Source of the DNA: a virus
IMG/VR virus record: IMGVR_UViG_3300032265_002238
Span: 1-34,105 of that record
Strand: one strand, 5' to 3'
DNA: 34,105 nucleotides
In this document: in pieces, positions 1,998-24,859 of the stretch
Layout: each line of letters starts with the position of its first letter
How positions within the stretch are numbered: position 1 is the first letter of the stretch
Made by a program: the position numbers and the translations under genes
Notes under the pieces: generated by a model
What the model was told of the DNA's origin: nothing
Database searches by the model: none
What the model saw: the letters and a program-made list of their open reading frames with translations, nothing else

Positions 1998-2389
1998 TGG
2001 TCTATGTCAACCCAAACTTTAACGGAAGCAACGACTACTTCCTGCCTGATGATGTAGTCCTCATTGACCATCACCTCGCTCTTGCAATGATGCCGCCAGC
2101 GTGGGCTGTCGAGGGGGCGTGTAGGGCGCCGAAGGCCGAAAACTTGCCGAAGTTTTTCCCCGAAAGCACAAAGCACGGTGGAAATCACCTAAAGCCAGCC
2201 CGTGAGTTGTGCTTGTCTTGCCCCGTTCGCTATGAGTGCCTCGAATACGGCATTGACGAGCCGTGGGGCGTTTGGGGCGGCCACTCGCCAAGCCAACGCC
2301 GCCGTATCAGTTCGCTAGTGAAAAATGGTAGTAGCCTATTGGAAGCAAGCCAAGCCATTGACGCACGGAGTAGGGATGCCAGAGGATAA
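1997..2389 (+). CDS. WhiB-like iron-sulfur transcription regulator
   Basis: 130 residues with the complete WhiB signature: C42, C72, C75 and C81 (C-x29-C-x2-C-x5-C) to hold a 4Fe-4S cluster, then the turn motif G91-V-W-G-G95 and a basic region (SQRRRISSLVKNG) for DNA contact. In this family the cluster-loaded form works with the primary sigma factor, and phage versions such as WhiB of mycobacteriophage TM4 can act dominantly over host WhiB proteins. The family is essentially restricted to Actinobacteria and their phages, so it is the best host clue in the window. It is joined to its upstream neighbour by TAATG and overlaps the portal gene by 14 nt, which puts a regulator inside a structural operon. 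An extra 40-residue N-terminus precedes the first Cys. Confidence 0.93.
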   Translation: MVYVNPNFNGSNDYFLPDDVVLIDHHLALAMMPPAWAVEGACRAPKAENLPKFFPESTKHGGNHLKPARELCLSCPVRYECLEYGIDEPWGVWGGHSPSQRRRISSLVKNGSSLLEASQAIDARSRDARG

Positions 2390-6233: not shown

Positions 6234-6281
6234 ATGAGTGACCCGACCTTTGTTATTGGCAGTTTTCCGAAAGGCTTCTAA
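6234..6281 (+). CDS. Possible 15-aa leader peptide coupled to the next gene
   Basis: ATG 6234, 15 codons, stop TAA overlapping the ATG of the next gene (TAATG at 6279-6283). It fills exactly the gap between two genes, and its last codons contain GAAAGG, which also serves as SD for 6281. It may only serve to couple translation. It is too short for coding statistics, so low confidence. Confidence 0.25.
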   Translation: MSDPTFVIGSFPKGF

Positions 6282-8506: not shown

Positions 8507-8513
8507 ACCAAGA

Positions 8514-8541
8514 TTTAGAAATAATGGGATAGCATTATCCC
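8514..8541 (+). promoter_or_regulatory. Promoter with TAGCAT -10 inside a small inverted repeat
   Basis: TAGCAT (8530-8535) lies 32 nt before the ATG at 8568. TTTAGAAA (8514-8521), a weak relative of the boundary element, lies 8 nt upstream. GGGATA (8526-8531) and TATCCC (8536-8541) form a 6-bp inverted repeat around GCAT, so the -10 itself is palindromic and could be an operator. Confidence 0.4.
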
Positions 8542-8567
8542 CGTAAGCCCCTAGAAAGGTAAGTCCT

Positions 8568-9371
8568 ATGTCAGACATCAACGCCGAAGTGACCGAGTGG
8601 GTCGTTAACTTTTGGAAGCAGGCCGAGCCTGTCGCTAGTGAAATCGAGGCTGACGAGGCTGACATCGAAAAGGGCGGTCGAGGTTCGGGTGAACATCAAG
8701 GACACCCTTTCCGTGGAAACCGCTACACCAGCGGCGTTCAGTCTGCTAATCACCACGAAGTGCGCCCCGGCACGGAACACTACGGTCACGCACAGCACTT
8801 GACCGCCGCATCAGCACACATTGCTGCGGGTCGTGCGGCAATGGCACACGGCGAGTTTGGCATTGCCCACTCGCACTTTAACGAAGCCGCCTACCACGCT
8901 TCGCAGGCTTCGAGCCAAATCGTTCACGGTGCTGGAAACCGTGAGATGGGCCACCACGCCGAACTCCTTTACCACGCTGCCCACCACGCTGGCGATGCCG
9001 CTGAAAAGGCTTCCTACCTGACGAACCAGCATCAGGATGCTATCCGTTCGGGTCGTGGCACGACTGTCGTGACCCGTGAGCAGTTGCTTGACACCTCGGC
9101 TGGTCAGGCCGTTCCCTCAACGAACAATGTTGGTAATATTGCAAGTTATTCGCCCCTTATCCCCGGTGCATCGGCAAGTGACCGTATTCTCACCACCGAG
9201 GAACTTGGCAACGCTGCCGCTGGCGCTCGTGCCAACGCTGAAGCCCAGAGCAACATCCTCGCTGCCGCCGACAACGCCGTGAACTCGGCTCGTGGTCTTT
9301 ACGCCCCCGCCACTATTGGTAGTAGCACGGGTCGTTCATATGGTAGTGGTCAAATCGCTTCTGGTCAATAG
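8568..9371 (+). CDS. His-rich helical cargo-like protein with one GNQ unit
   Basis: 267 residues, ATG after AGAAAGG. The N-terminus (MSDINAEVTEWVVNFWKQ) repeats the helix of gene 6281. One long-form GNQ unit (residues 35-53, KGGRGSGEHQGHPFRGNRY) follows. Residues 58-155 are a striking His/Ala helical block with about sixteen His in 100 residues (EHYGHAQHLTAASAHI, HGEFGIAHSHFNEAAYHA, HHAELLYHAAHHAGDAAEKA). The remainder is Ala/Asn/Ser-rich and partly helical. The His spacing (i, i+3/i+4) would put many imidazoles on one helix face, which suggests metal or polyanion binding; that is inference. It is encoded directly upstream of dps. Confidence 0.8.
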   Translation: MSDINAEVTEWVVNFWKQAEPVASEIEADEADIEKGGRGSGEHQGHPFRGNRYTSGVQSANHHEVRPGTEHYGHAQHLTAASAHIAAGRAAMAHGEFGIAHSHFNEAAYHASQASSQIVHGAGNREMGHHAELLYHAAHHAGDAAEKASYLTNQHQDAIRSGRGTTVVTREQLLDTSAGQAVPSTNNVGNIASYSPLIPGASASDRILTTEELGNAAAGARANAEAQSNILAAADNAVNSARGLYAPATIGSSTGRSYGSGQIASGQ

Positions 9372-9380
9372 TTTTCACTA

Positions 9381-9839
9381 ATGAAGGTCACGAAGGAAAC
9401 CAATAGTGCATTATCGGCGGCGTTAGCGACCTGTCTCGCCAATGCCACGATTATGTATCACCGTGTTCACGGTTTCCATTGGAACATTGTCGGCCCTGAC
9501 TTTCCTCAATGGCACAGCAAGTTTGAGGAAATCTACGATGATGTCTATGGCTCGCTTGACCCCCTTGCTGAAAACATCCGCAAGATAAGTGGCGTAGCCC
9601 CGTTCCGTTTGTCGGACTTGGCTATCCGTGCGACTGTTGCTGATGACAATGTGGGTGACTACTCTCCCCAAACCCTTATCAGCAGTCTGTTGGCCACGAA
9701 CTACGGCGTTCTTGACAGCCTGAACAATGCGTTCCAAATGGCTAATAGTGCAAATCAGCAGGGTATTGCCAACTTCCTCGCAGAGCGTATTGACGCTCAC
9801 CAAAAGTGGAACTGGCAACTTTCAGTCTCTAGGGGTTAA
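9381..9839 (+). CDS. dps: Dps / ferritin-like DNA-protection protein
   Basis: 152 residues, the normal Dps length. The four-helix ferritin-like fold is recognisable from YHRVHGFHWNIVGPDF and WHSKFEEIYDDVYGSLDPLA, then ENIRKI. By alignment to E. coli Dps (H51, H63, D67, D78, E82), the ferroxidase ligands here are H33, H45, E49, D60 and E64, so iron binding and oxidation look intact. Dps proteins form 12-mers that store iron, detoxify peroxide and condense DNA. The gene starts 10 nt after the previous stop, lies between two GNQ-module genes, and has no GNQ unit itself. A phage dps inside a presumed virion-cargo cluster suggests protection or condensation of the packaged or incoming genome. That role is inference; the family call is firm. 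Confidence 0.93.
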   Translation: MKVTKETNSALSAALATCLANATIMYHRVHGFHWNIVGPDFPQWHSKFEEIYDDVYGSLDPLAENIRKISGVAPFRLSDLAIRATVADDNVGDYSPQTLISSLLATNYGVLDSLNNAFQMANSANQQGIANFLAERIDAHQKWNWQLSVSRG

Positions 9840-9841
9840 GT

Positions 9842-10855
9842 ATGTCAAATCTTGATGCTGAAATCGTTGCTTGGATTTCCAAAGCACTAGTCGTAAAGGG
9901 CGGTCAAGGTTCGGGCGCACAGCCCGGTCACGCCTTTAATGGCAACCAATGGACTTCTGCTTCTGGTGGAAAGCGCGAACAGGCTTTTGCTGGCGAGGGT
10001 GCAACCCCGTTCTCTGGCAACCAGTACCCCAAGCCCAACTGGGGTGACAAAAACCTCACGCCGAAGTCGCTGGCAAATGTCAAGGTCAACGAAGGTGAAA
10101 CCAAGACCGCCGCACAGATTATGGAAGCGGTCACTCGCTACGCTGATGCCCACCCCGACACGATGCAGGGCTACTCCGACAAGGCCAGCCACGAGAAGTT
10201 TATTGCTGAACACGAGGATGCTATTCCAAAGTGGCTCTCCGACAGGGTGACCCAGAAGGATGTGGATGTCCTAGAGGACAACAACTACCACACGGCAAAC
10301 ACCGTCATCGCTGACCGCCGCCCCGACTTGGGTGGTTGGAATAGCCAAAAGGCTCTCGCACAGTGGGACAAATACAAGTCCGTTAGTGAAATCGCCAAGG
10401 GAGACAGTCCGGGTCATCCGTTCAGGGGAAACCAATACGCCCAAGCACCCGCTAGTGCGACAGACAACCTGAAAATGGTCAGGGGTCGTGCTGTTATTGA
10501 CGAACCTGCGGTTCAGGCGAACATTGACCACTTTACGCAGGTCGCACAAGAACACACTAACCAAGCCAACCAACACGCCGAAGCCGTTGCTGAACTTCAG
10601 GCTCGCATTGCCGAACACGAACGGGCTGGACAAATCCACCTTGATGCGGCAGGACTAGCACGACAAGTTGCTGATGACGAGCGTGAACTTAGCGACCCCG
10701 AAGGCGCCACCGATTTTCTATCTAGTCTGCCAAAGGGCGTAAGCCCCCTCATCGGTGAGGCATCTAATGGTTATACCTACGCAGAAAATCGCCAAAACTC
10801 TATCGCTGCTTCAGAAGCGGCACGACAAGCCACCGAAAGGGCCAACAGACTATGA
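9842..10855 (+). CDS. Modular cargo-like protein with three GNQ units
   Basis: 337 residues, starting 3 nt after the dps stop. The N-terminus MSNLDAEIVAWISKAL is the shared amphipathic helix, followed at once by a long-form unit (residues 19-37, KGGQGSGAQPGHAFNGNQW), a degenerate unit (51-62, ATPFSGNQY) and, at 186-199, the canonical KGDSPGHPFRGNQY. Between the second and third units lies a compact helical block (QIMEAVTRYADAHPD ... EKFIAEHEDAIPKWLSDRV) that I do not recognise. After the last unit comes a His/Ala coiled block (IDHFTQVAQEHTNQANQHAE, ARIAEHERAGQIHLDAAGLA). Its stop overlaps the next start (ATGA). No enzymatic motif is visible, and function is unknown. Confidence 0.82.
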   Translation: MSNLDAEIVAWISKALVVKGGQGSGAQPGHAFNGNQWTSASGGKREQAFAGEGATPFSGNQYPKPNWGDKNLTPKSLANVKVNEGETKTAAQIMEAVTRYADAHPDTMQGYSDKASHEKFIAEHEDAIPKWLSDRVTQKDVDVLEDNNYHTANTVIADRRPDLGGWNSQKALAQWDKYKSVSEIAKGDSPGHPFRGNQYAQAPASATDNLKMVRGRAVIDEPAVQANIDHFTQVAQEHTNQANQHAEAVAELQARIAEHERAGQIHLDAAGLARQVADDERELSDPEGATDFLSSLPKGVSPLIGEASNGYTYAENRQNSIAASEAARQATERANRL

Positions 10856-12012
10856 CCAACCCTTTTTCACTAGCCAGCCTTGCCCCCACTTGGGTCAAGG
10901 CAACCGCCATCCTGAAGGGCGATACGCCGGGGCATCCGTTTCGTGGCAACCAATACGCCAGCGCACATTCGCTTTCCGACAAGGCAACTAACCTGAACAA
11001 CAAGGTTCAACAGGGAACCGACGATTACGCTACTGGTCCCTATCAGGTCACATCGTTCCACGCCGAGGTCGCTGACGAACACCGTGGCATTGCCGAGCAG
11101 CACCGAGCCAGCATTGGTGCGCTGAAGCAGGAAGCGCAGAAGGCACAGGATGAAGGCAAGCCGATTTTGGCTAGTCACATCGTTAGTGAAATGCAAGCGC
11201 ACGCAGACGCGGCGCGAGCGCACGAGGAAGCCGCTGACAGCCACGAGAAAGTTGTTGACCTCGCTCTCAACCCCCGTGCTGGTGACTGGTCACGGCAAGA
11301 GGATGAAGCCACCCACGCTACGAAACTTGCTGATTTGGCTTCAGGACAGGCAGCACAGGCCGAGTTTAAGACGAACTCGCTTCCCCAGACCCAAGGTAGC
11401 CGTACTGTCTCAATGCCCAACGCCAACGGTAATCCCACGCTGGTTGCCAATGTTGAGCGCCACAGCATCTTTGATAAGTCTGCTGAAATCACGAAGGGTG
11501 ACCTGCCGGGACACGACTTTCACGGCAACCAATGGCAAGTTGTTGGAGTAAGTAGTCGCAAAAACGAAAACACCCTTCACGGCCCACGCCACGCTGCTGT
11601 CCTCGCTACTGCCCTCGCACAGCGCGTTCGGGCAAATGACAACAATACGCCAGCGTTTGATAAGAATGTGCTTGCTTGGCGCGAACAGCACCAAAAACTT
11701 GCCGAGTACCACGCCCGCCGTGCGAGCGAAATGCGAGCAAAGGCAGACACCGCTTGGAAACAACACCGCAATGCAGATGATGAGGAAGTTTCCAGCATCA
11801 AGCACGACAAGGCGGCACAAGCCCACCTTGATGCGGCAAGGACTATGAAAAACGCAATGGCTGGCGCTCCGGGGTTTGTTTCACCAGCCTCACAAGCCGC
11901 CGCCGAAGCCAGCCGTGCCGCTTTGGAAAGTGATGTCGCAGCAACTTCCATCTTGGGTCGCAACGGCGCTTGGGGTAAGGGTGTTGTAAACCGAGCCAAG
12001 TACGGTGATTAG
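10852..12012 (+). CDS. Modular His/Ala-helical protein with two GNQ units
   Basis: 386 residues, coupled to the previous gene by a 4-nt ATGA overlap. The short N-terminus (MTNPFSLASLAPTWVKATA) keeps only the W-V-K-A end of the shared helix. GNQ units lie at residues 22-35 and 215-228, and each is followed by a His/Ala-rich helical block: HAEVADEHRGIAEQHRASIG and MQAHADAARAHEEAADSHEK after the first, WREQHQKLAEYHARRASEMR and KHDKAAQAHLDAARTMKNAM after the second. The two halves therefore look like an internal duplication of [unit + His/Ala helix bundle]. No catalytic motif, membrane segment or signal peptide is seen. Confidence 0.82.
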   Translation: MTNPFSLASLAPTWVKATAILKGDTPGHPFRGNQYASAHSLSDKATNLNNKVQQGTDDYATGPYQVTSFHAEVADEHRGIAEQHRASIGALKQEAQKAQDEGKPILASHIVSEMQAHADAARAHEEAADSHEKVVDLALNPRAGDWSRQEDEATHATKLADLASGQAAQAEFKTNSLPQTQGSRTVSMPNANGNPTLVANVERHSIFDKSAEITKGDLPGHDFHGNQWQVVGVSSRKNENTLHGPRHAAVLATALAQRVRANDNNTPAFDKNVLAWREQHQKLAEYHARRASEMRAKADTAWKQHRNADDEEVSSIKHDKAAQAHLDAARTMKNAMAGAPGFVSPASQAAAEASRAALESDVAATSILGRNGAWGKGVVNRAKYGD

Positions 12013-12023
12013 CAGTACAAGTA

Positions 12024-12045
12024 TTTCCAAATAACGGTGTAGCAT
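12024..12045 (+). promoter_or_regulatory. Promoter with TTTCCAAA element and TAGCAT -10
   Basis: TTTCCAAA (12024-12031) and, 8 nt later, TAGCAT (12040-12045), 28 nt before the ATG at 12074, which has GAAAGG as SD. The spacing matches the 4123-4147 promoter. There is no standard -35. Confidence 0.42.
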
Positions 12046-12073
12046 TTCACCAGAACCCGAAAGGATTAGCCAG

Positions 12074-13549
12074 ATGATTAAAGTTCCCAGCACTAACCCA
12101 ACGACTGTCTCCTTCGTGCAGAAGGGTGTGGACAAGAACGCAGGTCGCATTGCTTCCGAGCAAATCACCAAGGCTGCGACTGCCGAAGTTGTGGCTCGCA
12201 CCGAGTTTGAGAACGCCAACTACCGCCTGACGAAGGCTACCGAGGCTCTTTCGGCTAGTGAAATCGCTTACCAAGAGGCTGTCGCTAAGTCCTCGTGGAA
12301 CAAAGAAACCGTTCGTGCCGCTTACAACAACACTCTGGTTGGCTTCCGTGAGGCTGACCGCAATGCTGAAATCGCCGCCGAGAAGTTTGCGAAGGCTAAG
12401 GCTGCTTTGGCTGGACTTCGTGAAGTCGCTAAGGCAGAAATCAGCAACGGCGAGGAACTGAAGGCGGCTGTCAAGAACGCCAAGACCCCGGCTGACCGCA
12501 AGGCTTGCGTTGATGCAGCCGAGCGCCTGAAGTTGGTGTTTTTCTTGCCAAAGGGCTGGAAGGCTGAAGCCGACAAGATGCAAAAGGCAGTTGACCGTGC
12601 ATCGTTGCTTGATGCTGAAAAGCAGGCTCTGGCTGTCAAGGACACCGACCCTGCAAAGGCGATGGAAATCCTGAACAACATTGCTGACCAATACGCAGTC
12701 GAGGCTGGCAAGGCTCGTGAAGCCGGTGACATCCCTCGTCACAGCGCCCTCGCTCTTGAAGGTGGTCGTGTGCGTGGTTTGGCTACCCAAATCCGTCAGG
12801 AAGGCTTTGACAACAAGTATCCCGTGCAGGACATCAAGGACATCCCTAACCTGCCGTTTGCCAACACCAATAAGTCCATCCGAAAGGAAGTTGTAATGCC
12901 CGATGCAAAGATTTTGGTTATCTGCCCCTCTTGTGGTGGTGATGACAACGATGCCCCCTCTTGCCCGATGTGTGGCGGTTCGATGCTCGTTTCACCGCAG
13001 ACCGCAAACGCGGCGTGGGATGACAGTTCCGACAGTTCGGATGACGGTTCCGCACCCGGTATGCAGTTCACCACGAAGGCTCTGCTCACCCGTGACTTTG
13101 AGAAGTCGTTTGGCTTCCAAAACTACATTTTCAGTAAGGGTGGCCCCGGTTCGGGCGAGCATCCCGGACACCCCTTCCGTGGCAACCAGCACACGGGCGG
13201 TATCAAGGTCAATGGTCGCTACATCCACGAGCGTGAAGGCCACAAGGTCACCACGGCTCGCTACAACGAGGGTGTGAAGGCTCACGAGACTGCCGCCGAA
13301 GCAATGAAGGCTATCGCTCGTGGTCACGAAAGTCAGGGTCGCTACGCTAAGGCAGCCGAGGCTATGCGCGCCGCCTCCGACCATCACAAGATGGCGGCTG
13401 GCTTCCACGAGGGTCTTTCTGGCATCCACGAGCGTGTTCACGGCGATGCAGTTGCTCACGACACAGAGCGTGGTCTTGCTGCCCAGCAGCGTGTTTACCA
13501 GACCCGTGCGAGCGCCGAGGCAGACCGCCTCTCCGCGCTGGCTGCGTAG
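12074..13549 (+). CDS. Coiled-coil / zinc-ribbon protein with one GNQ unit and His/Ala tail
   Basis: 491 residues. The N-terminal 270 residues form a long Ala/Lys/Glu coiled coil (ATAEVVARTEFENANYRLTK, then EAALSAS-type heptads). A zinc ribbon follows, C284-P-S-C287 ... C297-P-M-C300, then a short acidic Ser/Asp stretch (DDSSDSSDDGS) reminiscent of the tract in the head protease. A long-form GNQ unit at 355-373 (KGGPGSGEHPGHPFRGNQH) leads into a C-terminal His/Ala helical block (VKAHETAAEAMKAIARGHES, ASDHHKMAAGFHEGLSGIHE). It has its own promoter with a TAGCAT -10. Only the last 140 residues resemble its GNQ relatives, so it looks like a fusion. Function unknown; a scaffold-like or DNA-binding internal head protein is possible. 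Confidence 0.82.
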   Translation: MIKVPSTNPTTVSFVQKGVDKNAGRIASEQITKAATAEVVARTEFENANYRLTKATEALSASEIAYQEAVAKSSWNKETVRAAYNNTLVGFREADRNAEIAAEKFAKAKAALAGLREVAKAEISNGEELKAAVKNAKTPADRKACVDAAERLKLVFFLPKGWKAEADKMQKAVDRASLLDAEKQALAVKDTDPAKAMEILNNIADQYAVEAGKAREAGDIPRHSALALEGGRVRGLATQIRQEGFDNKYPVQDIKDIPNLPFANTNKSIRKEVVMPDAKILVICPSCGGDDNDAPSCPMCGGSMLVSPQTANAAWDDSSDSSDDGSAPGMQFTTKALLTRDFEKSFGFQNYIFSKGGPGSGEHPGHPFRGNQHTGGIKVNGRYIHEREGHKVTTARYNEGVKAHETAAEAMKAIARGHESQGRYAKAAEAMRAASDHHKMAAGFHEGLSGIHERVHGDAVAHDTERGLAAQQRVYQTRASAEADRLSALAA

Positions 13550-13566
13550 TTTCCAAAACTCGCCAC

Positions 13567-13616
13567 TAGCCGCCACTACTGAAATCCCGAAGTCTGGGGT
13601 AAAGTAGTGGCGGTTA
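13567..13616 (+). promoter_or_regulatory. Long inverted repeat overlapping a possible -10
   Basis: CCGCCACTACT (13570-13580) and AGTAGTGGCGG (13603-13613) are perfect 11-bp arms; with flanking bases the stem is 14 bp with one G-U pair and a 22-nt loop. TAAAGT (13600-13605), a possible -10 for the gene at 13639, sits at the base of the right arm. The left arm is preceded by another CGCCACTA (13561-13568), a direct repeat. It could be a terminator without a U-tract, or an operator. Confidence 0.5.
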
Positions 13617-13638
13617 GTCATATTTGAGGGGTCAACCA

Positions 13639-14238
13639 ATGCGTAATCCATTTGAGGCAGAAGCACTTGCGAGTGAGTTGTCACAATGGGTCGCAAAGGC
13701 TCGTCAGGTGGAAATCCACAAGGCTGGCAACGCACAGGGTCTTATTGACTGGTACAACAACGGTGCTGATGGGCAAATCCAATGGGGTAGCGAGGGTGAC
13801 TTTGATGCCTGTGTCGCTATTGCTGGAAAATACCTTGACAACCCGCAGGGTTTCTGTCAACTTCGCCACATAGATGCAACAGGTGGGCCTGCTGGAAAAG
13901 CCCCCGGCGAAATCCAAAAGGGCGACAAACCCGGTCATCCTTTTCACGGAAATCAGCACGTCAAGGTTGACGAGGGGGGGCAACCCGTAGCGGTCAAGAT
14001 GACCCGTGTAGCACCCGGCTACTACACGCACAACGACCTTGCTGGAAACACTTGGCGCATTGAGCAAGTGCAAGGCCGTGACGACCGTGGCTACGGGAAC
14101 GAAAACGGCAAGTGGCAAGCCACGACAACTGGCGGAGAACACCTGCTTGAAGCACCGGCAGACACATTGAGCGAAATGCGTGACGCTCTATTGGAACACA
14201 ACCAAAGACTTGCCGAAAGAACTAATGATGGAAGTTAG
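13639..14238 (+). CDS. GNQ-module protein with a conserved actinophage domain
   Basis: 199 residues from ATG 13639 (SD GAGGGG, 7 nt away); an in-frame TTG at 13624 is less likely. The first helix (EAEALASELSQWVAKARQVE) resembles the shared N-terminal helix. Residues about 32-80 (GLIDWYNNGADGQIQWGSEG, then FDACVAIAGKYLDNPQGFCQ and LRHIDATG) form a domain I know from many actinophage structural-region proteins, without a defined function. The GNQ unit is at 94-107. The C-terminal 90 residues are mixed beta/alpha with APGYYTHNDLAGNTWRIEQV. It overlaps the next gene by 14 nt. The domain context suggests the same virion-associated set; no enzyme residues are evident. Confidence 0.8.
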   Translation: MRNPFEAEALASELSQWVAKARQVEIHKAGNAQGLIDWYNNGADGQIQWGSEGDFDACVAIAGKYLDNPQGFCQLRHIDATGGPAGKAPGEIQKGDKPGHPFHGNQHVKVDEGGQPVAVKMTRVAPGYYTHNDLAGNTWRIEQVQGRDDRGYGNENGKWQATTTGGEHLLEAPADTLSEMRDALLEHNQRLAERTNDGS

Positions 14239-14425
14239 CGACTTTTTCAGCGACAACCTCGCCCCCAAGACCACCAAGACTTTGGAAGCCGAGAAACTGA
14301 CGAAGGCAGTCAAGACCGGCTCGTGGGATTTCAGCACTAATGGGCTTCTGAAGGTAGCCGTTCCTGTGGCAGTCAAGCGTGTCAGGGATTTGGACTTCAG
14401 CACGAACGCCCTGCTCTCGGAGTAG
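14225..14425 (+). CDS. Small protein with a duplicated DFSTN motif
   Basis: 66 residues from ATG 14225, which overlaps the previous gene by 14 nt; the longer frame at 14180 would lie wholly inside that gene. The sequence holds two near-identical nonapeptides, WDFSTNGLL and LDFSTNALL, about 25 residues apart, with different codons. Lys and Thr are frequent in the N-terminal half (KTTKTLEAEKLTKAVKTG). The next gene begins 3 nt after its stop. I do not recognise a family. It may be a small partner of the large protein that follows. Confidence 0.65.
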   Translation: MMEVSDFFSDNLAPKTTKTLEAEKLTKAVKTGSWDFSTNGLLKVAVPVAVKRVRDLDFSTNALLSE

Positions 14426-14428
14426 GCA

Positions 14429-17400
14429 ATGTTCCAACCCAACTTCGTCACTTTCACCAGCACCGACATCACGGGTCGTGAGCCGTTAGACGGTCAGACC
14501 TTTAAGGGCAACCAGAACGATGGCTTCGTTTTCGTGCGGTTTGCTGATGGCTCTGGCGGTTTGGAAAAGGAGATGAAGGACTGGGTTGGCAACAAGACAG
14601 GTCGGCTCTACCGTGCTGAAATCCTTGCTGCACAAGAGTATCTGGCAGCCCAAGTCGGCAAGGCGATGAACGCCCCCGTTCGTGACTGCTATTTCACTAG
14701 CCCCACAACGGTCATTATGCCCTTCATCTTTGGAACGCCCGGAGACAAGGCCAGCGAAACTTCTTTGCCACAGAACGCACAAGGAACAGCACTCCAACTG
14801 TTTGACTACTTGGTTGCCAACGCAGACCGCCGCCCGAAAAACTGGATAATCACCTCGGACAACCGCATTGTGGGTATTGACCACGCCCTCTGCAACTTCC
14901 GACCTCGCTTCCCCGACCCCGACTTCGTTGCTGAAATGTGGAACAACGGCGTGTCGCTGGACAGTTTGACAATGCTGCGCCCGAAGTTGGCTGCCCTCGT
15001 TTTGGATTTCACCTCACTAGGGATGGGTGACAAGCACGAAAACTTGATGGCAAACTTTGACCGCCTGCTCAACGGTTTCCAAGTCCTTGACCAAGTGGCG
15101 GTGGTGATTAAGGATGCCCTTACGCCCCCGAAGGGTGTTCAGGAAACCGCCCAACGAGCATTGGCGTGGATTAAGGATGGCAAGGCTGGCTCTGGTTTCA
15201 CCCCTGTGGGTCGTAAACGAGCCTCTGACCTTGCTAACGCCCACCCCGTGTCTCTTGACACGCTGAAGCGTATGAAGGCGTATTTTGACCGCCACCAGCC
15301 CGACCAGAAGGCCGAAGGATTTCAGCAGGGCGAAAAAGGCTACCCCTCACCGGGTCGTGTGGCGTGGGATGCGTGGGGTGGCGATGCAGGTTGGTCGTGG
15401 GCAAAGTCTGTGGTGGAACGCAATGTGGAGAAGGAAGCCGCAGGACACGAGTTTCACGGTAATCAGCACACCGGCTCAAAAGGCAGTAGTGCGCCCCCTC
15501 GTCAGTCTGACCCCAACCGCAACCAAGTGTCGGCAGACCGTAATAAAGTTCCAGCAGACCGCAACCAAGTCGCAAGTGCCTCAACAGATGACCAGCCGAA
15601 GGCAGATGCCGGTGGTGATACCAAAAAGATATGGGCGCAGGAACAGGCGCAACAAATCCTTGATGGCAAGATGCCCGTTATTCCACCAGACCAACTTCTT
15701 GACTTTTTCCGTCAAGTCAAAGACCTACCAAAAGAGTTTCAGGAAGCGGATGCTACTGAAATCAACACGGAAACGGCTGGCCCTCGCGGCCCCCTGCTTG
15801 GCGATGAAGGCGTAGGCGGTGGTGTTTCACGCACCGAGATGCCCCAACTCAATGGTGATGAACAGAAGCGAGAGTTCATCAAGGAGTTAGAGGAAAAGAT
15901 GGGGGTCAAGACCACCGAGGAACGGGTTGACCCGACCACTCTTTCCCCCTACCAAAAGGAAATGGTTGCTGGAAAGATAGGCAACCTTGTCTCACAAAAT
16001 CCCACCGGCATCCCCGACAGTCAGCGCATCATCGTGTCAAGCGACAACATTGTTATTGACGGTCACCACAACTGGGCTGCTGGCGTTGCTCTCCACGAAG
16101 GTTTGGATAGCAGACCACTTCTGCCGATTTTCCGTGTGAATATGACCGCCGCCGAACTTATTCCACTAGCAACCAAGTTTGGCGATGAACACGGCAACGA
16201 GCGCAAGGGGATGACAAACAAATCTGTCGAGGTGGTGGAAAAGAACGCCAAGAAAGCCGTTGCCACGATTTTGCACGGCATCTCCCTGCACATCCACCGA
16301 CACCTCAAAAAGCAGGCAACAGCACCCGTTCCTCGCTACGAAGGCACTTCCTACGAAAACCCCGTTCCAAAGCACGATGAGCAGTCGTGGGGCAACTTGG
16401 GTGAAGGGCAGACAATGCCCCAGAGCCACGCTGAAACGGGCGATGCCCTAGCCAGCCACGCCTTTGACCTCTGGCGTAAACAGCAGTATCAAAGTGCCGG
16501 TTTCGCACACGAGGATGCCGCAAGTTCCTACCGCCGAGCAGCCAAAATCACCTCTGACCCGCACGAACGAGCCTCGCTCGAAAGCAAGGCACAAGCGCAA
16601 GACAACGAAGCCAAAGCCGCCCACTTCACGCACGAGATGGGTGAGGCACACTCGCCTACTGAAATCTACAAAGGGGATGTTCAGGGGCATCCATTTCACG
16701 GGAACCAATACGAGAGTGGTGAAGGCGGCTGGAAGCCTGTAATGACTTCAGCCGAGGCAATGGAGTGGGCAAAAAACTCTGCCATCCAAGTTCCCCTGTA
16801 TCACGGCACGAATAGGCCAGACAGCATTATGTCCGAAGGCTTTCGGGATAACACGGGTGGTGGAAACCTCATCAACGGCACTTGGCTGAACGACTTTGAC
16901 CCCCGACAGAGCGAAAACGAAGTGCACTGGGGACAACACACTCTCACGGTGATGGCAAATGTCAAATCAGTTGCTACCCCCGAACAGACAAAGGCAATAC
17001 ACATCAAGGTTGAGGAACTGATTTGGGGAACCCAAGACCGCAAAATCAACCCCGGCGATGAAGCACGGAAAATCGCTCTAGAGCAAGGGTTTGATGCACT
17101 TCAGCCAAGCAAGGGCGTTTACATTGTTCTCAACCCCAAAAACCTGACGGTTGTTTCCGATGAGGTGAAAAAGGGCGAAGCGGCTGGACATCCCTTTCGG
17201 GGCAACCAATGGACAACGGGGCAGGATAGTGAAATGCCCGACAATGTGGCGGCGTTCGCTCGAAACCTGAAAGAGTTCTACGGTGCTGGTGGAAAAGTAG
17301 AGCGCATTGACAACCCCGACAAGATGCACGAAACCTACGAGCAAGCACTCCAACTCCAAAAGACCCCCGAATACAAAAATGGGGATACTCGACACAAGCA

Positions 17401-19186
17401 GGGCATCCGTTTTCTAGCAGAAGCGGCATTAGAAGCAAAAATCGCACACGGCCAAACAAAGGATGGGCTTTACAGTCTCACCGGCTCGCACCTATTTGTC
17501 GCTCGTGACAAAGACGGACAAATGGTATCCGCTATCAACATTTCCACCTTTTCTGGTGGTCTGACTTCCGGCTACAAACTAGATGGCCCCGAAGTTCCCC
17601 ACGCTGAAATCGGTTATCTTGGCTCTACGGGAACAATGCCCGGTGCGGCAACAGCACTTATGGAACAGGCTCTCCAACTTGCTTCCGACAAGGGGCTAAC
17701 AGTCACCTACACAACTACATCTGACAGCCAGCCCTATCACGATATGTTGGGTGTGCAGGAACTGAACTACCGAGGATTACGAGGTTTTTCACCAGAAAGT
17801 GCAGCAGAGGTAGCGGCACTTCCAAATCCGAAGCCAACCATCATTAAGTCGTTCCTGAACTTGTTTATCACCAAAGGAGATGTAGCGGGTCACGCCTTTC
17901 ACGGAAACCAATACGAGCAGGTAGCGAGTTCGGGTAAGACAACTTCACCTCGCAAGCCACGAGCCAAGACCCCGACCATCGCCGGTCTGCCAAAGGGCTG
18001 GAAACTGAAGTCGAAGGATGGAAGCCGCGTTGTCCTGACATCCAAAAACGGGAACACCGCCATCTTTGCCACTCGCAGCCGAGGTTGGAAGCCTACTGAA
18101 AAGTATTCCCAGATGGTCTTGGCTACCTGCGAGAAGTTTACTTCGGGCAAGACCATCAACTTCGTTGCTGAAGCCAATGTCGGCAGCAACTCTCTTGCTT
18201 ATGTCAACCGCGCCAAGCCAGATATCATCGGTATGGGGCGTTATTCCAGCGTTCTCCAAACCCTTGACCACCAGCGCAGCGAGTTTGAGAAGCAGGTCAC
18301 CAATAACGCCCTTGTCGGCACAGACTTGTCGTTGGCGTTGATGGGGATGGCCAAGGGTTCACCAGAACGGGAAGCCCTTATTGACAAGATGGGGGCAATA
18401 TACGACAGCCAGCCACGCACCGAAGCAATGGTGCAGGGCATCAGCCACTCCTACGCTTCGTATGTCACCCCCGAAAAAATCATCGAAACGATGTTTAACC
18501 ACGAACTTGGTCACTCGGACTTCTTTGGCGAGGGTCACAAGATTAGTGAAATCTACCCCGCCCTGACCGAAGCAGCGAAGGCAACTTTGGATGCCTCAAG
18601 GCAGGCAGGTGGCAGCCGACCTGTCTCGCTGGCAAGTTTCACCGCCCCCGAAATCTGGGCGCAAACCCAACTGCAAGCCGCACAGGATTTGGCGACCAAT
18701 ACTTCATCTCGCTACTCCGGCTTTGATGTGGGCAACGGCGTAATCGTGCCTCGTGGTGATTATGTGGACTACGAAATGAAGCAGCAAACGGGAAGCCTTG
18801 TGCTGCGAAGCACCCCTCAGTCCATCTTGCAGAGTATTGGAGTGACCCAATACGGCTCGACCAAACTTCAGGAAACCGTTGCTGAAGCACGGGCGTTTTA
18901 CTCATCGCCCGAACTGCCGAAGTCTGCCCTGACAAACCGTATTGCTGAAATACTTGGTTGGAACAAAACGGCCAAGTCTGTTAGCATCCCCTTCGTGAAG
19001 TCCGAGGATGACAGCGTTCCCCCATCAAGCGACAATGTATATCAGGATGCCAACGGGAACACCATCGCTCGCATCTTTGATGTCGTTGACACTTCGGGCA
19101 ACGGGGCTATCACCATCGTGGGCGAGCAAGTCATCCTGTCTGATGGCTCGGTGGTCAGCCTCAATGACTACAACGCCACGCACTAG
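14429..19186 (+). CDS. Giant mosaic polyvalent-type protein: kinase, ParB-like, ART-like, GNAT-like and zincin domains
   Basis: 1585 residues. Domains in order: (1) 1-230, PI3/4-kinase or HipA-like kinase, with LEKEMKDW and YRAEILAAQEYLA in the N-lobe, catalytic D126-Y-L-V-A-N131-A-D133-R-R-P-K-N138-W and metal motif I150-D151-H; (2) 233-329, a helical domain frequent in actinophages (GVQETAQRALAWIKDGKAGS ... SPGRVAWDAWGGDAG); (3) 500-600, ParB/sulfiredoxin-like, with SPYQKEMVAGKIG and VIDGHHNWAAG (541-552); (4) 771-909, ADP-ribosyltransferase-like, with LYHGTNRP (about 790), GTWLNDF and GVYIVLNPKNLTVV; (5) 932-1130, GNAT-like, with IGYLGSTGTMPGAATALMEQ then YHDMLG; (6) 1165-1585, zincin with H1358-E-L-G-H1362. 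GNQ units near 21 (degenerate), 335, 748, 915 and 1149 mark the borders; a short ADRNQV/ADRNKV repeat lies at 365-383. The architecture fits the phage polyvalent proteins described by Aravind and colleagues, thought to enter the host with DNA and act on defences. Activities are predicted, not shown. Confidence 0.88.
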   Translation: MFQPNFVTFTSTDITGREPLDGQTFKGNQNDGFVFVRFADGSGGLEKEMKDWVGNKTGRLYRAEILAAQEYLAAQVGKAMNAPVRDCYFTSPTTVIMPFIFGTPGDKASETSLPQNAQGTALQLFDYLVANADRRPKNWIITSDNRIVGIDHALCNFRPRFPDPDFVAEMWNNGVSLDSLTMLRPKLAALVLDFTSLGMGDKHENLMANFDRLLNGFQVLDQVAVVIKDALTPPKGVQETAQRALAWIKDGKAGSGFTPVGRKRASDLANAHPVSLDTLKRMKAYFDRHQPDQKAEGFQQGEKGYPSPGRVAWDAWGGDAGWSWAKSVVERNVEKEAAGHEFHGNQHTGSKGSSAPPRQSDPNRNQVSADRNKVPADRNQVASASTDDQPKADAGGDTKKIWAQEQAQQILDGKMPVIPPDQLLDFFRQVKDLPKEFQEADATEINTETAGPRGPLLGDEGVGGGVSRTEMPQLNGDEQKREFIKELEEKMGVKTTEERVDPTTLSPYQKEMVAGKIGNLVSQNPTGIPDSQRIIVSSDNIVIDGHHNWAAGVALHEGLDSRPLLPIFRVNMTAAELIPLATKFGDEHGNERKGMTNKSVEVVEKNAKKAVATILHGISLHIHRHLKKQATAPVPRYEGTSYENPVPKHDEQSWGNLGEGQTMPQSHAETGDALASHAFDLWRKQQYQSAGFAHEDAASSYRRAAKITSDPHERASLESKAQAQDNEAKAAHFTHEMGEAHSPTEIYKGDVQGHPFHGNQYESGEGGWKPVMTSAEAMEWAKNSAIQVPLYHGTNRPDSIMSEGFRDNTGGGNLINGTWLNDFDPRQSENEVHWGQHTLTVMANVKSVATPEQTKAIHIKVEELIWGTQDRKINPGDEARKIALEQGFDALQPSKGVYIVLNPKNLTVVSDEVKKGEAAGHPFRGNQWTTGQDSEMPDNVAAFARNLKEFYGAGGKVERIDNPDKMHETYEQALQLQKTPEYKNGDTRHKQGIRFLAEAALEAKIAHGQTKDGLYSLTGSHLFVARDKDGQMVSAINISTFSGGLTSGYKLDGPEVPHAEIGYLGSTGTMPGAATALMEQALQLASDKGLTVTYTTTSDSQPYHDMLGVQELNYRGLRGFSPESAAEVAALPNPKPTIIKSFLNLFITKGDVAGHAFHGNQYEQVASSGKTTSPRKPRAKTPTIAGLPKGWKLKSKDGSRVVLTSKNGNTAIFATRSRGWKPTEKYSQMVLATCEKFTSGKTINFVAEANVGSNSLAYVNRAKPDIIGMGRYSSVLQTLDHQRSEFEKQVTNNALVGTDLSLALMGMAKGSPEREALIDKMGAIYDSQPRTEAMVQGISHSYASYVTPEKIIETMFNHELGHSDFFGEGHKISEIYPALTEAAKATLDASRQAGGSRPVSLASFTAPEIWAQTQLQAAQDLATNTSSRYSGFDVGNGVIVPRGDYVDYEMKQQTGSLVLRSTPQSILQSIGVTQYGSTKLQETVAEARAFYSSPELPKSALTNRIAEILGWNKTAKSVSIPFVKSEDDSVPPSSDNVYQDANGNTIARIFDVVDTSGNGAITIVGEQVILSDGSVVSLNDYNATH

Positions 19187-20468: not shown

Positions 20469-22649
20469 GTGCTGGAACAGACAACTGACCTGACCGCCGT
20501 TTCACTATTCGCTGGCGTGGGGGGCTTTGATTTAGCCCTCGAACGACAGGGCGTAAAGGTCGTTGCTGCGGTGGAAATAGACAAGAACGCCAGAGGTGTG
20601 CTTGCCCATCGCTTCCCGAACAGCACACTCTTTCCCGATGTCACGGAGGTCACAGGTGAGCAACTACGAGCAGCAGGCTTTATTCCCGAACGGGGAATAC
20701 TTACAGGAGGCTTCCCTTGCCAAGACCTCAGCGTTGCTGGAAAACGGGCCGGTTTGGCTGGCAAGCGTTCTGGCCTCTTTTGGGAAATCGCTCGGCTCAT
20801 TGACGAACTCTCGCCGCAGTACTTCATCCTCGAAAATGTCCCCGGTCTTTTGTCCTCAAACGGAGGACGAGACTTTGGAGCCGTCTTACGGGCGTTGGTT
20901 GACAGGGGGTACGGGGTCACATATCGGGTATTGGACGCTCAATACTTTGGAGTACCACAACGCAGAAGGCGCGTGTTCATTGTCGGATGTCTTGGAGACA
21001 CAGGGGCCACAACTAGTGAAATACTCGCTCTCTCCGAGGGCTTGTCAGGGTATCTTGAACAGAGCATCAAGAAGGAACAAGAAACTTCCACCACTACTAA
21101 GCGCCGCACTAGAAGCAGTAGCAGCGAAGGAAGCAGCGTAGCCAACGATGTGGTTGTCGGCCCGTTAACAGCAACGGGTATGTCTCGTGCGAGAGGCACG
21201 GAGACTGTCGAAAGTAATCACCTTGCTTTGGAAAACCCCTCGGTTATCGCTTTCAGCGGCGGTCAGTCATCTGGTTCGTATGGCTTGGGTCTTGACGAAA
21301 ATGTTGCCCCACCGCTTCGTGCGTGTGGTGGAAACAACTCGATGGCAACGATTATGGTTCCTGACCTTGCTCTTGCTTTACCACAAACGCTGGCATTTGA
21401 CACGCAGTTTGGGTCTAACGCAAATGTGTTTGAGGACATTTCACCAACCCTGAAGGCTTCGCAAGCGCCGCCAAGTTTCACCGAAGTCGGTATGGAGCCG
21501 ATTTTCTTTGATAGCGCCACACACGGCGATGGCGCTCGTATTTCTGACAAGACCATTCCGACCCTGACATCCCGTATGGGAACAGGTGGAAACAACACGC
21601 CCCTCGTGGCTTACGCCTACCCCATAATCGGCATTGACCAAGAACTCAATGCCCGTGAGGATGTGATGGGAACGCTACAAGCCGGTGCTGATAGCGGCAC
21701 TCGGATGCAAGCGGTTGCCTACTCGGTGCGTGAGGATGCCCAGAGCGACACTTTCAGCGCAACGGAACTCACGGCGGTTAACGCCCTGCAAGCCCACCAG
21801 CCATCACCACAGAGCCACCACGCCCAGACCTTCATTGTCGAGCCAGCCGTGTATCCAATACAGGATGGTCGTGAGATGAACCACCAGCAGAACGGCATTG
21901 GCTTGGGTGGTGAAAACGACCCCGCCTACACCCTGCTGGCTACGGGCGGTCAAAGCGTTGCCCTTGCGTTTGAGCCGGGGGCGATGAGCCGACTTCCGCA
22001 CCGTCACCTAGAGGAAGTCGCCCAAACCCTTCGTGCCAACGCAGGGGATAATCAGCAAGCAGTCCTCATCAACAAAACCGAGCAAGTAGCCGTTTCCTAC
22101 GATGGCTACAACCAGAGCGTTGAGGTGGAAACCCACCGTTCCCTTCGCACGGGTCGTGACAGTTCGGACTTCGTGGCAACCATTCAGGTTGGTGAAACAG
22201 CAGACGAGGAAGCAACGCCTACGGGCAACCTCACCCCTTGGCCGGATATGGGCCAGCCCAATATGGTCTATCGCACCGACACGGCAACACGCTCGGTGGA
22301 TACCACCAACCGCCACTTGATTTTGGATACAGAAGCGGCAGCGAAGGTGGTTTCACCAACCCTGACTGCTTACAATATGGACAGTCGCTCGCCCCAGAGC
22401 GAGGAAAGCCAGCGTATTACGGGCGCAGTCCACGCAGTCACCTCAACTGTTCGCCGCCTAACACCAATGGAGTGCGAACGCCTTCAGGGATTTGACGATG
22501 GCTGGACAGCCTTCCGCATTGACGAAAAGAAGGGTCTAATCAGCCAAGCCGATGCCCCTCGCTACAAGCAGATGGGAAACGCCGTGGCCGTTCCTTGCGT
22601 GGAGTGGATAGTCAAGCGACTAGTTGAGGTGGACAAGGCTCGTGCCTAA
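20469..22649 (+). CDS. DNA (cytosine-5) methyltransferase with a long repeat-containing target-recognition region
   Basis: 726 residues, far longer than typical C5 methyltransferases (320-450). Conserved motifs: I, LFAGVGGFDLALE (13-25); IV, GGFPC84QDLSVAG with the nucleophilic Cys; VI, E122-N-V-P-G; VIII, QRRRRVFIVG (about 164-173); IX-X at the C-terminus, LTPMECERLQGFDDGW and YKQMGNAVAVPCVEWIV. It transfers a methyl group from SAM to C5 of cytosine in a specific site. Between VIII and IX lies an insert of about 450 residues with roughly ten diverged copies of a 30-45-residue unit ending P-T-L-x-A-x-x-G (for example APPLRACGG, SPTLKAS, QTLRANAG, SPTLTAY). The GTG start has a -10 but no SD. 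It probably shields phage DNA from host restriction, and the insert may carry several specificity segments. Confidence 0.93.
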   Translation: MLEQTTDLTAVSLFAGVGGFDLALERQGVKVVAAVEIDKNARGVLAHRFPNSTLFPDVTEVTGEQLRAAGFIPERGILTGGFPCQDLSVAGKRAGLAGKRSGLFWEIARLIDELSPQYFILENVPGLLSSNGGRDFGAVLRALVDRGYGVTYRVLDAQYFGVPQRRRRVFIVGCLGDTGATTSEILALSEGLSGYLEQSIKKEQETSTTTKRRTRSSSSEGSSVANDVVVGPLTATGMSRARGTETVESNHLALENPSVIAFSGGQSSGSYGLGLDENVAPPLRACGGNNSMATIMVPDLALALPQTLAFDTQFGSNANVFEDISPTLKASQAPPSFTEVGMEPIFFDSATHGDGARISDKTIPTLTSRMGTGGNNTPLVAYAYPIIGIDQELNAREDVMGTLQAGADSGTRMQAVAYSVREDAQSDTFSATELTAVNALQAHQPSPQSHHAQTFIVEPAVYPIQDGREMNHQQNGIGLGGENDPAYTLLATGGQSVALAFEPGAMSRLPHRHLEEVAQTLRANAGDNQQAVLINKTEQVAVSYDGYNQSVEVETHRSLRTGRDSSDFVATIQVGETADEEATPTGNLTPWPDMGQPNMVYRTDTATRSVDTTNRHLILDTEAAAKVVSPTLTAYNMDSRSPQSEESQRITGAVHAVTSTVRRLTPMECERLQGFDDGWTAFRIDEKKGLISQADAPRYKQMGNAVAVPCVEWIVKRLVEVDKARA

Positions 22650-23766
22650 TGCAACGATTTTGGTGGGCGATGTCCGACAACGCCTTAGTGAAATCCCCGA
22701 TGCGACAGTCCAAACCGTAGTCACATCCCCGCCCTACTTTGGGCTGCGTGACTACGGAACGGCTACTTGGGAAGGCGGTTCACCAGACTGCGACCACCGA
22801 GTAGGTAGAGCCACACGGGGCGGTCTGACCGAGAAGCAAGACACCAACAACGGCTCGTTTGGCGATGAGGCCGTATGGGTATGTCCTCATTGTGGGGCTA
22901 ACCGCATAGACAGCCAAATGGGGCTAGAGGAAACACCAGAAGCCTATGTAGAGGCGATGGTTGCCCTGTTCCGTGAAGTCCGGCGTGTGCTGAAAGACGA
23001 TGGCACACTCTGGCTCAACTTGGGGGATAGTTATTTCCCTCACAATGGTTCAAGGGGAAACAAAACACCAGCAGGCGATACTTTGCGAGGGCGAGATAAC
23101 GAATACCAACCTTCACCAAAAATAAATGCAGAGGGACTAAAAGGAAAAGACCTAATCGGTATCCCTTGGCGCGTTGCTTTTGCACTTCAGGCCGATGGCT
23201 GGTATCTGCGCTCGGACATTATTTGGCACAAGCCGAACCCAATGCCCGAAAGCGTTCGTGACCGCCCAACCAAGAGCCACGAGTATGTGTTCCTTCTCAC
23301 CAAATCAGCAAAGTATTACTACGACCACGAGGCAGTAAAAGAGCCGGTGGCAGAGGCAACTGTCGGGCGTATGAAGCGTGGAACTTCAGCAACGCACAAG
23401 AACATCAACGGTGCGCCCGGACAGACAAAGCACGGACTTGCCCAGCCCAGAGACTACGACCCTGACCGCCCTGTTGCTGAAAAGCGAAACCGCAGGTCAG
23501 TATGGACTATCAACACCAAACCCTTCAAGGGGGCGCACTTTGCCGTGATGCCCGAAGCCCTTGTCGAACCCTGCATCTTGGCAGGAAGCAAGGAAGGTGA
23601 TTTAGTCCTTGACCCGTTCACGGGCAGCGGAACTGTCGCTGTGGTTTCACTACGGCACGGCAGGAACTTCATTGGCACAGAACTCAACCCTAACTACGCC
23701 GAAATCGCACAGAACCGCATTGCGAAACAGCACCCCGAACCCGATTTAAGGTGGCACATTGTTTAA
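22642..23766 (+). CDS. SPPY-type DNA methyltransferase (beta-class N4-C or N6-A), copy 1
   Basis: 374 residues from GTG 22642, overlapping the C5 enzyme by 8 nt. Motif IV is T28-S-P-P-Y32 and comes first; the SAM-binding motif D324-P-F-T-G-S-G330 is near the C-terminus, the order of beta-class amino-methyltransferases. SPPY is commonest in N4-cytosine enzymes but also occurs in N6-adenine ones, so the target base cannot be fixed. C50, H52, C81 and C84 (P-D-C-D-H ... V-C-P-H-C) form a probable zinc finger inserted before the helical LFREVRRVLKDDGTLWLNLG segment. The middle third (KSHEYVFLLTKSAKYYYDHE) is typical of phage and type II/III modification enzymes. It is adjacent to a close paralogue; no restriction enzyme is encoded beside it. 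Confidence 0.92.
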   Translation: MPNATILVGDVRQRLSEIPDATVQTVVTSPPYFGLRDYGTATWEGGSPDCDHRVGRATRGGLTEKQDTNNGSFGDEAVWVCPHCGANRIDSQMGLEETPEAYVEAMVALFREVRRVLKDDGTLWLNLGDSYFPHNGSRGNKTPAGDTLRGRDNEYQPSPKINAEGLKGKDLIGIPWRVAFALQADGWYLRSDIIWHKPNPMPESVRDRPTKSHEYVFLLTKSAKYYYDHEAVKEPVAEATVGRMKRGTSATHKNINGAPGQTKHGLAQPRDYDPDRPVAEKRNRRSVWTINTKPFKGAHFAVMPEALVEPCILAGSKEGDLVLDPFTGSGTVAVVSLRHGRNFIGTELNPNYAEIAQNRIAKQHPEPDLRWHIV

Positions 23767-24859
23767 CGCCCGTATCCTCATTGGCGATGCTCGCAAGAGA
23801 CTTGCTGAAATCCCAGAAGGTTCAGTTCGCTGCGTAGTCACTTCCCCGCCCTATTTTGGATTACGGGATTACGGCACAGCCGACTATGAGGGTGGCGACC
23901 CTGACTGCGAACACACGATTTCCCGACCTGATGCTGAAAAGACCGCCAAGCAAGACGAGAGGGTGACCCGTGGTGATAGGACATTTTGTATCAAGTGTGG
24001 GGCTAACCGTGTGGACAGCCAAATCGGTCTAGAGCCGACCCCTGCGGAGTATGTTGCTGAAATGGTCGCTCTGTTCCGTGAAGTCTGGCGAGTGTTGTCT
24101 GACGATGGAACTGTCTGGCTCAACATCGGAGACAGTTATGCCGGTGGCGGTGGTGGAAACTACAACAAGACCGGCATCTCGCAGGCTGGCGGTCAGCACA
24201 TCGCCAATGTCCGAAACCGCCCAGAGTGGCTGGACAACGCAGGGGTGAAGCCGAAGGACTTAATCGGTATTCCGTGGCGAGTTGCCCTTGCATTACAGCA
24301 GGATGGCTGGTACCTTCGCTCGGACATCATCTGGGCCAAGCCAAACCCGATGCCAGAGAGCGTGACAGACCGACCCACGAAGTCTCACGAATATGTCTTT
24401 CTGCTTTCCAAATCACCAAAGTATTTTTACGACCACGAAGCCGTGAAAGAGGATGCCGTTCTCCCCGCAGGAACGAAGGCGGCAAAGGGAAGTGCTGAAA
24501 GGCAAGCCATCAAGGGCGTGAACGCTCGACCCCCCGAATACAAGATTTATGACGGTAAGCGGAACAAGCGGTCAGTTTGGACTGTGAACACCAAACCGTT
24601 TAAGGGCGCTCACTTCGCCGTAATGCCAGAGGCACTTGTCGAGCCGTGTGTCTTGGCTGGTTCAGCACCCGGCGATACCGTTCTTGACCCCTTCACAGGA
24701 AGTGGCACGGTGGCGGTAGTTTCACTACGCAACGGGCGCAACTTCGTAGGAACGGAACTTAACCCCGAATACGCCGACATTGCCTACGAGCGCATCACCA
24801 ACGACCAACCGCTAATGAACCAAGTTGTGCTGGATTTCAGCACCAAAACAAAGGAATAA
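23759..24859 (+). CDS. SPPY-type DNA methyltransferase, copy 2 (paralogue)
   Basis: 366 residues. The start is TTG 23759, overlapping copy 1 by 8 nt with AGGTGG as SD; it makes the N-termini align (FNARILIGDAR versus PNATILVGDVR). The motif order is the same: T28-S-P-P-Y32, a zinc finger (C-E-H ... I-K-C-G-A), LWxNxGDSY, KSHEYVFLLSKSPKYFYDHE and DPFTGSGTVAVVSLRNG. By eye it is about two-thirds identical to copy 1; the main differences are in the segments after the SDSY-like helix and before RNKRSVWTVNTKPFKGAHFA, the likely target-recognition parts. The pair looks like a tandem duplication followed by divergence of specificity. It is the third methyltransferase in 4.4 kb. Confidence 0.92.
   Translation: MFNARILIGDARKRLAEIPEGSVRCVVTSPPYFGLRDYGTADYEGGDPDCEHTISRPDAEKTAKQDERVTRGDRTFCIKCGANRVDSQIGLEPTPAEYVAEMVALFREVWRVLSDDGTVWLNIGDSYAGGGGGNYNKTGISQAGGQHIANVRNRPEWLDNAGVKPKDLIGIPWRVALALQQDGWYLRSDIIWAKPNPMPESVTDRPTKSHEYVFLLSKSPKYFYDHEAVKEDAVLPAGTKAAKGSAERQAIKGVNARPPEYKIYDGKRNKRSVWTVNTKPFKGAHFAVMPEALVEPCVLAGSAPGDTVLDPFTGSGTVAVVSLRNGRNFVGTELNPEYADIAYERITNDQPLMNQVVLDFSTKTKE

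Follow-up and report, generated by a model that had tools for sequence, protein, structure and literature searches.

Results

Architecture of a 1585-residue protein encoded among phage head genes

What brings a kinase, a metallopeptidase and several other unrelated modules together in one protein encoded among the head genes of a phage, and what joins these modules to one another? This question is raised by a gene in a 34.1-kb linear virus record from an uncultured freshwater phage; the record, 34,105 nucleotides in full, is the stretch of DNA analysed here and is called the window. The gene (14429-19186, plus strand) has an ATG start and encodes, as first annotated, a single chain of 1585 residues, here P0001, with relatives in loci L004-L012. 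Upstream lie the portal gene (2325-4004; Portal_Mu, PF06074, E 2.3e-33) and the gene of a prohead protease (4174-5943; Peptidase_S78_2 at residues 447-568, PF14550, E 2.7e-14), a candidate processing enzyme. These are followed by seven ORFs at 6281-19186 that bear a repeated peptide (the tag), of which the P0001 gene is the last and longest, and then by two lysis-like ORFs; three DNA methyltransferase genes and, later, the major capsid protein gene (29160-30146; phrog_1005, E 5e-102) lie further downstream. The portal, protease, capsid and tagged genes are all on the plus strand.

The tagged ORFs are interrupted by two others, a Dps-like one that lacks the tag and a small one. The former, a Dps/ferritin-like gene at 9381-9839 amid the putative head-cargo cluster, matches phrog_3636 and scores E 2e-14 with NCBIfam DpsA, under that family's cut-off; an 81-residue ORF at 14180-14425 lacks the tag and carries the leader-like motif DFSTN[GA]LL twice. 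The C5 DNA methyltransferase encoded at 20469-22649 has a repetitive insert of ~430 residues that splits its N- and C-terminal motifs, and two more methyltransferase genes follow it at 22624-24859. In the protease ORF, a long Ser/Asp-rich tract precedes the S78_2 domain; S78_2 ORFs are extended in many, not all, phages with the tag, and are ~300 residues long in two S78_2-bearing control contigs. A WhiB-like ORF at 1997-2389, read from the sequence, and an Rpf/transglycosylase-like ORF elsewhere in the window point to a probably actinobacterial host.

P0001 begins with a kinase domain (residues ~10-222; 14456-15094), as the initial annotation had proposed. The five residues on which that proposal was based (D126, N131, D133, N138 and D151) are present and, together with R134, invariant in 12 sequences that include divergent paralogues, and K47 is nearly so; the ATP-binding lysine (K47), the catalytic D133 and N138, and the metal-binding aspartate (D151) of a PI4KII/HipA/CtkA-like kinase are thus conserved. 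The AF2 model of this domain, with pLDDT mostly >90, has a kinase fold and matches CtkA (Z 14.5, rmsd 3.9, 207 residues aligned), PI4KII-beta (Z 13.5) and HipA (Z 12.7). A profile search against the PDB gave PI4K2B (PI4KII-beta; E 2.7e-4), and a match to the NCBIfam SCO1664 family (3e-4) lies below the family cut-off.

Behind the kinase lies a domain that the initial annotation did not list (residues ~229-335; 15113-15433). It is the best-conserved part of P0001 and terminates in GGDAGWSWA, and within P0001 no database match is stronger than the one that covers it (phrog_2859, E 1e-75). In roseophages the same GDAGW domain forms the N-terminal part of protease-capsid polyproteins, and it recurs in cyanophage ORFs named 'major capsid' and in an ORF of Actinomycetia phage DSL-LC01 named 'capsid maturation protease'; this occurrence in head polyproteins and capsid ORFs suggests a role in prohead targeting. 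The domain is without a Pfam match, and both the copy in the window and that in locus L132 belong to a type common to head polyproteins of unrelated phages. In 12 GDAGW domains of IMG/VR loci, some of them close relatives, the tag follows 8-14 residues behind, and the module behind one and the same GDAGW domain varies among phages.

Four further modules had been claimed for the rest of the chain, and they fare differently. The ParB/sulfiredoxin-like module (residues ~452-600; 15782-16228) contains the motif VIDGHHNW; across 16 relatives its D, G, H and W never vary, and the surrounding core DGHHxWAA is conserved. The module also has a weak PHROG match (phrog_3041). Relatives of it were found in ~200 phage records, with many Ackermannviridae among them, and a homologue, ORF101 of Dickeya phage LIMEstone1, is a confirmed virion (structural) protein. 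The variable GHHxW position, which may or may not be that of the conserved active-site arginine of DdrB-like ParB domains, is an arginine in some relatives and an asparagine in P0001. A long-helix segment follows (16346-16648), defined by predicted helices and by the relatives. The next module (16766-17173) carries LYHGTN and had been taken for an ADP-ribosyltransferase (ART), an assignment that neither homology nor fold confirms: a pattern scan found no relatives, Pfam returned nothing up to E 10, a profile comparison with other YHG[TS] modules gave no match, and the model, built without homologues, is of low confidence. We refer to it as ART-like.

The GNAT module (residues ~936-1132; 17234-17824) is substantiated by its fold and its conserved residues. 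Its model matches AtaT (Z 11.1, rmsd 3.5, 159 residues aligned) and TacT3 (Z 11.0), and the GAAT of the acyl-CoA loop is invariant. AtaT and TacT3 are tRNA-acetylating toxins; the likeness of the predicted fold says nothing on the substrate of this module. In the zincin-type metallopeptidase module (17981-18958), the HELGH at residues 1358-1362 (HELGHSDFF, 18500-18526) and the downstream Glu1486 both lie in predicted helices with pLDDT >90, and HExGHS and the glutamate are invariant in six sequences. The residues named at first for this module hold; whole-model fold searches of the PDB and BFVD returned lists filled by GNAT matches, and we claim no independent fold match for the zincin.

Catalytic residues of the kinase and zincin modules and the motif residues of the ParB-like module are thus kept in relatives, and structure prediction returned kinase and GNAT folds. 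The chain combines disparate domains, two seen as folds (kinase, GNAT) and two as conserved residues (zincin, ParB), in a virion gene context with Portal_Mu and S78_2 upstream and the major head protein downstream. The label 'polyvalent protein' that it had been given fits the available text of Iyer et al. 2017 (PMC5512222). The domain mixture in P0001 is that of an ordinary phage polyvalent protein, and the novelty lies in the tag.

A conserved peptide stands between the modules

The modules had been described as separated by 'GNQ modules'. Four of these are real tags: GHEFHGNQ (residues 339-346; 15443-15466), GHPFHGNQ (753-760; 16685-16708), GHPFRGNQ (920-927; 17186-17209) and GHAFHGNQ (1154-1161; 17888-17911). 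The first GNQ of the chain is not; GNQNDGF (~residue 29) is the glycine loop of the kinase, predicted to be ordered and conserved as GxQNxGF in kinase modules. The four tags lie in or beside segments with pLDDT <50 and are predicted to be disordered.

The tag can be summarised as [VIL]xKGDxxGHxFxGNQ[YWH]TxGGG, and an alignment of 294 copies gives [VIL]xKGD[VYFL][PAE]GH[PE]F[RH]GNQ[YWH][TVE]xGxGG with unconserved flanks; in some tags KGGPGSG substitutes for KGD. Most loci were fetched with GHPFxGNQ, so conservation of the core letters is partly by construction, and that of the lysine, the aspartate, the aromatic residue and the glycines is not. In all, we collected 275 copies in 184 non-redundant ORFs from 105 loci, almost all of them viral. 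When these ORFs were rescanned with a relaxed pattern, only 8 decayed copies, with one or two core changes, appeared beside the 275 intact ones.

Several trivial origins were discarded. The window holds 14 exact tags, all in plus-strand genes at 6281-19186, and none of the reversed pattern; the GHxFxGNQ codon pattern occurs ~192 times in 21 contigs and its reverse never, and a viral collection holds at least 118 stretches as against 12 for the reversed-codon control, which rules out chance. A DNA repeat is ruled out as well, as all 14 copies in the window differ in DNA and their codons vary freely. Nor is the tag a cellular feature: a slightly stricter pattern found only nine stretches in 257 Gb of bacterial and archaeal DNA (84,980 genomes), five to six of them real and these mainly in betaproteobacterial contigs. 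We consider it very probable that selection maintains the tag as a recognition peptide.

Short-peptide searches of limited sensitivity brought up a convincing tag in a single cultured phage, Xanthomonas phage Rb1, an INPHARED record. In the open-access literature we found no paper that describes the motif in a phage context, and the tag appears to be undescribed. The initial annotation had supposed that the GNQ separators might be new in this combination of domains; their novelty stands as far as the searchable literature goes, and their restriction to this combination does not, the tag probably being a general one of head cargo. Phage DSL-LC01 (locus L133, 7764-12683) has another short motif, QVRDKTGKFA or PRDAKGQF, in comparable places of capsid-protease genes, once behind a leader of ~25 residues; this may be an analogous tag.

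Tags follow leaders and head domains

The other tagged genes of the window show how the peptide is placed. Four ORFs of putative cargo come first: one at 6281-8506 with tags at 6848, 7232, 7616 and 8135; one at 8568-9371 with a leader and a variant tag, GHPFRGNR (8700-8723); one at 9842-10855 with the leader MSNLDAEIVAW and tags at 9926 and 10412; and one at 10852-12012 with the leader MTNPFSLASLAPTW and tags at 10930 and 11509. Two more ORFs have a single tag each (12074-13549, tag at 13166; 13624-14238, tag at 13933).

This pattern is general. In about half of the complete tagged ORFs, the tag stands near the N terminus behind a short conserved leader. Two leader classes were recognised among 77 N-terminally tagged ORFs: F[HST]xx.L (for example MSGFTTNELLYPLTKGD and MSNPFSTDALVPVWKSASEILK) in 30, against a mean of 0.2 in shuffled sequences, and xE[IV]xx[WF] (MDNLNNEIIAWVQLAKGD) in 9, against 0.05. 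Together they account for 39 of the 77, against about 0.2 in shuffles, and thus conserved leaders are found on diverse cargo, as in T4. In larger ORFs the tag stands behind a portal, protease, MuF, DarA_N or GDAGW domain or another cargo module, with variable cargo after it.

According to Pfam, the carriers of the tag among the 184 ORFs are portals (Portal_Mu, Phage_portal, Phage_portal_3), Phage_Mu_F, DarA_N and prohead proteases (S78_2, S78, Mu-like_Pro, DUF2213), and other modules comprise ADPrib_exo_Tox, ART-PolyVal, zeta toxin, InPase, NUDIX, TopoIB, HipA_2 and PBECR1. Nearly all cases read individually have the tag on the C-terminal side of the core domain, be it portal, protease or MuF. 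An S78_2 domain, for example, is joined by a tag to a P-loop kinase of zeta-toxin type (L197), and Rb1 has the order InPase, DarA_N, tag. At least 90 residues nearly always follow the tag. The exceptions are five ORFs with a tag at the extreme C terminus (L044, L045, L091, L093 and L016), four of them with the variant GHPFYGNQH; such tags favour docking rather than cleavage.

In contigs >40 kb, tags lie mostly downstream of the portal and protease genes and on one strand. S78_2 is present in 21 of 42 tag contigs, as against 2 of 12 controls; the half in which it is not visible is to be read with the fact that most contigs are fragments. S78 (PF04586) is ruled out as the common protease, with one weak match in the 42 contigs. 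Two control heads with S78_2 and Portal_Mu and no visible cargo cluster (L148 and L153) have no tag in the stretches read.

Whole modules are gained and lost at tags

Comparison of close relatives (73-95% identical) shows that whole modules are gained or lost exactly at tags. P0001 and its relative in L004 are 73% identical where they align; a unit of 166 residues, the ART-like module, is present in P0001 and missing from the equivalent place in L004, and L004 has a different unit with a pattern, LWRGM...EKEW, that by eye resembles R-S-E ARTs and has no Pfam match. In L004 the zincin is encoded apart, in an ORF that has a leader and a tag of its own. In the L004 protease ORF, a tagged module is inserted between two GEIxK stretches, and the homologue of this insert is module 1 of the window's ORF at 9842-10855. 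In addition, L005 and L008 (95% identical) differ in two units of 247 and 197 residues whose boundaries are tags. Across alignments, 27% of HSP ends fall within 25 residues of a tag as against 14% for random positions, a 2-fold difference only and a weak test. As judged from these comparisons of relatives, modules move as tag-to-tag units.

Discussion

Taken together, these results suggest that tagged proteins are probably head cargo; by analogy, the structural ParB homologue of LIMEstone1 counts indirectly towards this. Because tags stand on the cargo side of prohead components and nearly every copy is retained, with up to eight per chain, each tag would serve its own module, and is best explained as a processing site or an individual anchor for that module. 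For P0001, we favour, at slightly under an even chance, a head-packaged cargo polyprotein with tags at its module junctions that is most likely processed there during head maturation.

The packaging, cleavage, ejection and host action that we infer would run as follows. The front part of P0001, kinase and GDAGW domain, would bring the chain into the prohead, a task that a leader of 10-25 residues would perform in stand-alone tagged genes, and the ParB-like, ART-like, GNAT and zincin modules behind it would be the payload. The peptide K-G-D-x-x-G-H-x-F-x-G-N-Q-[YWH] with its Gly/Ser linker would mark the junctions between targeting part and cargo and between one cargo module and the next, and would be recognised by the prohead protease, here of the S78_2/XkdF type, which would separate the modules as the head matures. 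The small enzymes would then be stored in the head and ejected with the DNA.

That the tag is a cleavage junction is close to evenly balanced, since several observations speak against cutting. With nine residues the core exceeds known prohead-protease sites in length, it is the same in phages that have different families of protease in their tagged ORFs, and at the extreme C terminus cutting would separate nothing. To these we add, against our reading as a whole, that the portal and capsid proteins of the window are untagged and that S78_2 is unseen in half of the contigs. The main rival, which we regard as the less likely reading, is that each module carries the tag as a peptide for docking or packaging: it would bind one conserved surface inside the prohead, or bind a host factor, and stay uncut, leaving the polyproteins intact and multivalent. 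A long, nearly invariant core is typical of a binding peptide, and the shared core in phages with different proteases, the rare C-terminal tags and the disordered flanks also fit. However, portal, protease and MuF proteins enter the prohead without a tag and yet bear one at the cargo junction, the two control heads that lack a visible cargo cluster show none in the stretches read, and no common receptor was found. Moreover, one anchor per chain would be enough, yet every copy is kept; this, and the trimming of N-terminal parts of head-internal proteins by prohead proteases in T4, P1 and SPN3US, is why we favour processing over anchoring.

Could P0001 instead be an ordinary polyvalent protein in which the tag is a lineage-specific, recombination-friendly spacer that aids domain shuffling? 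Modules do shuffle at tags, and the domain types match those in the available text of Iyer et al. (PMC5512222), but conservation is at the level of protein, with DNA and codons free to differ among the 14 copies of the window, and a spacer would need neither the retention of GHxFxGNQ[YWH] in 275 copies nor its placement behind leaders and head domains; we consider this improbable. Cutting of P0001 at its tags by its own C-terminal zincin, in line with what the available text of Iyer et al. proposes for MPTase domains, is the least probable reading, for although zincins are common in polyvalent proteins and the catalytic residues are conserved here, tags occur in 105 loci and this zincin in about 14, and in L004 the zincin is a separate gene.

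More broadly, and more tentatively than for P0001 itself, processing at tags could amount to a cargo cassette system of uncultured phages. A portable peptide recognised in head maturation would allow interchangeable effectors to be placed behind any head-targeted part, these parts possibly being a leader, the GDAGW domain, a portal, a protease, MuF or DarA, and to be released as separate injected proteins across unrelated proteases. If this is true, injected effectors that domain databases miss can be found in phage genomes with a search string of nine residues, modular loading of proteins into phage heads is indicated, and the building, shuffling and dismantling of polyvalent proteins, an open point since 2017, is explained.

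Comparison with known systems places the tag in context. The available text of Iyer et al. 2017 describes phage polyvalent proteins, including P1 DdrB, and proposes their packaging, injection and processing by zincins (PMC5512222). Like P0001, these have many unrelated enzymatic domains per chain and are encoded beside portal and capsid genes, and the list given there holds ParB-like, GNAT, MPTase, kinase and ART types, all as in P0001; in the same text a repeated junction peptide was not found. P0001 departs from the proteins described there in having a kinase of the PI4KII/CtkA/HipA type and a tag that elsewhere links portal, protease and MuF domains to cargo as well. In phage P1, DarA is packaged, lies on the inner face of the capsid and is cleaved N-terminally by the prohead protease (PMC12810830). 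A DarA_N domain, as in the DarA/Hdf anti-restriction proteins, is present in the tagged protein of Rb1, whereas P0001 has no DarA domain. The ejection proteins of SPN3US and phiKZ are likewise head-internal and lose N-terminal propeptides to the prohead protease; according to the available text, the SPN3US site comprises three residues ending at P1, a short motif with no repeated tags described, unlike that of the tagged phages (PMC10052503). Closest to the leaders is the capsid targeting sequence of T4, a short N-terminal leader on diverse small internal proteins that directs them to the prohead and is removed by the gp21 prohead protease (PMC9026906). The putative targeting leader of tagged phages differs from it in sequence, and in contrast to T4 it is followed by a conserved tag of ~18 residues, which is repeated further inside the ORF, up to 8 times.
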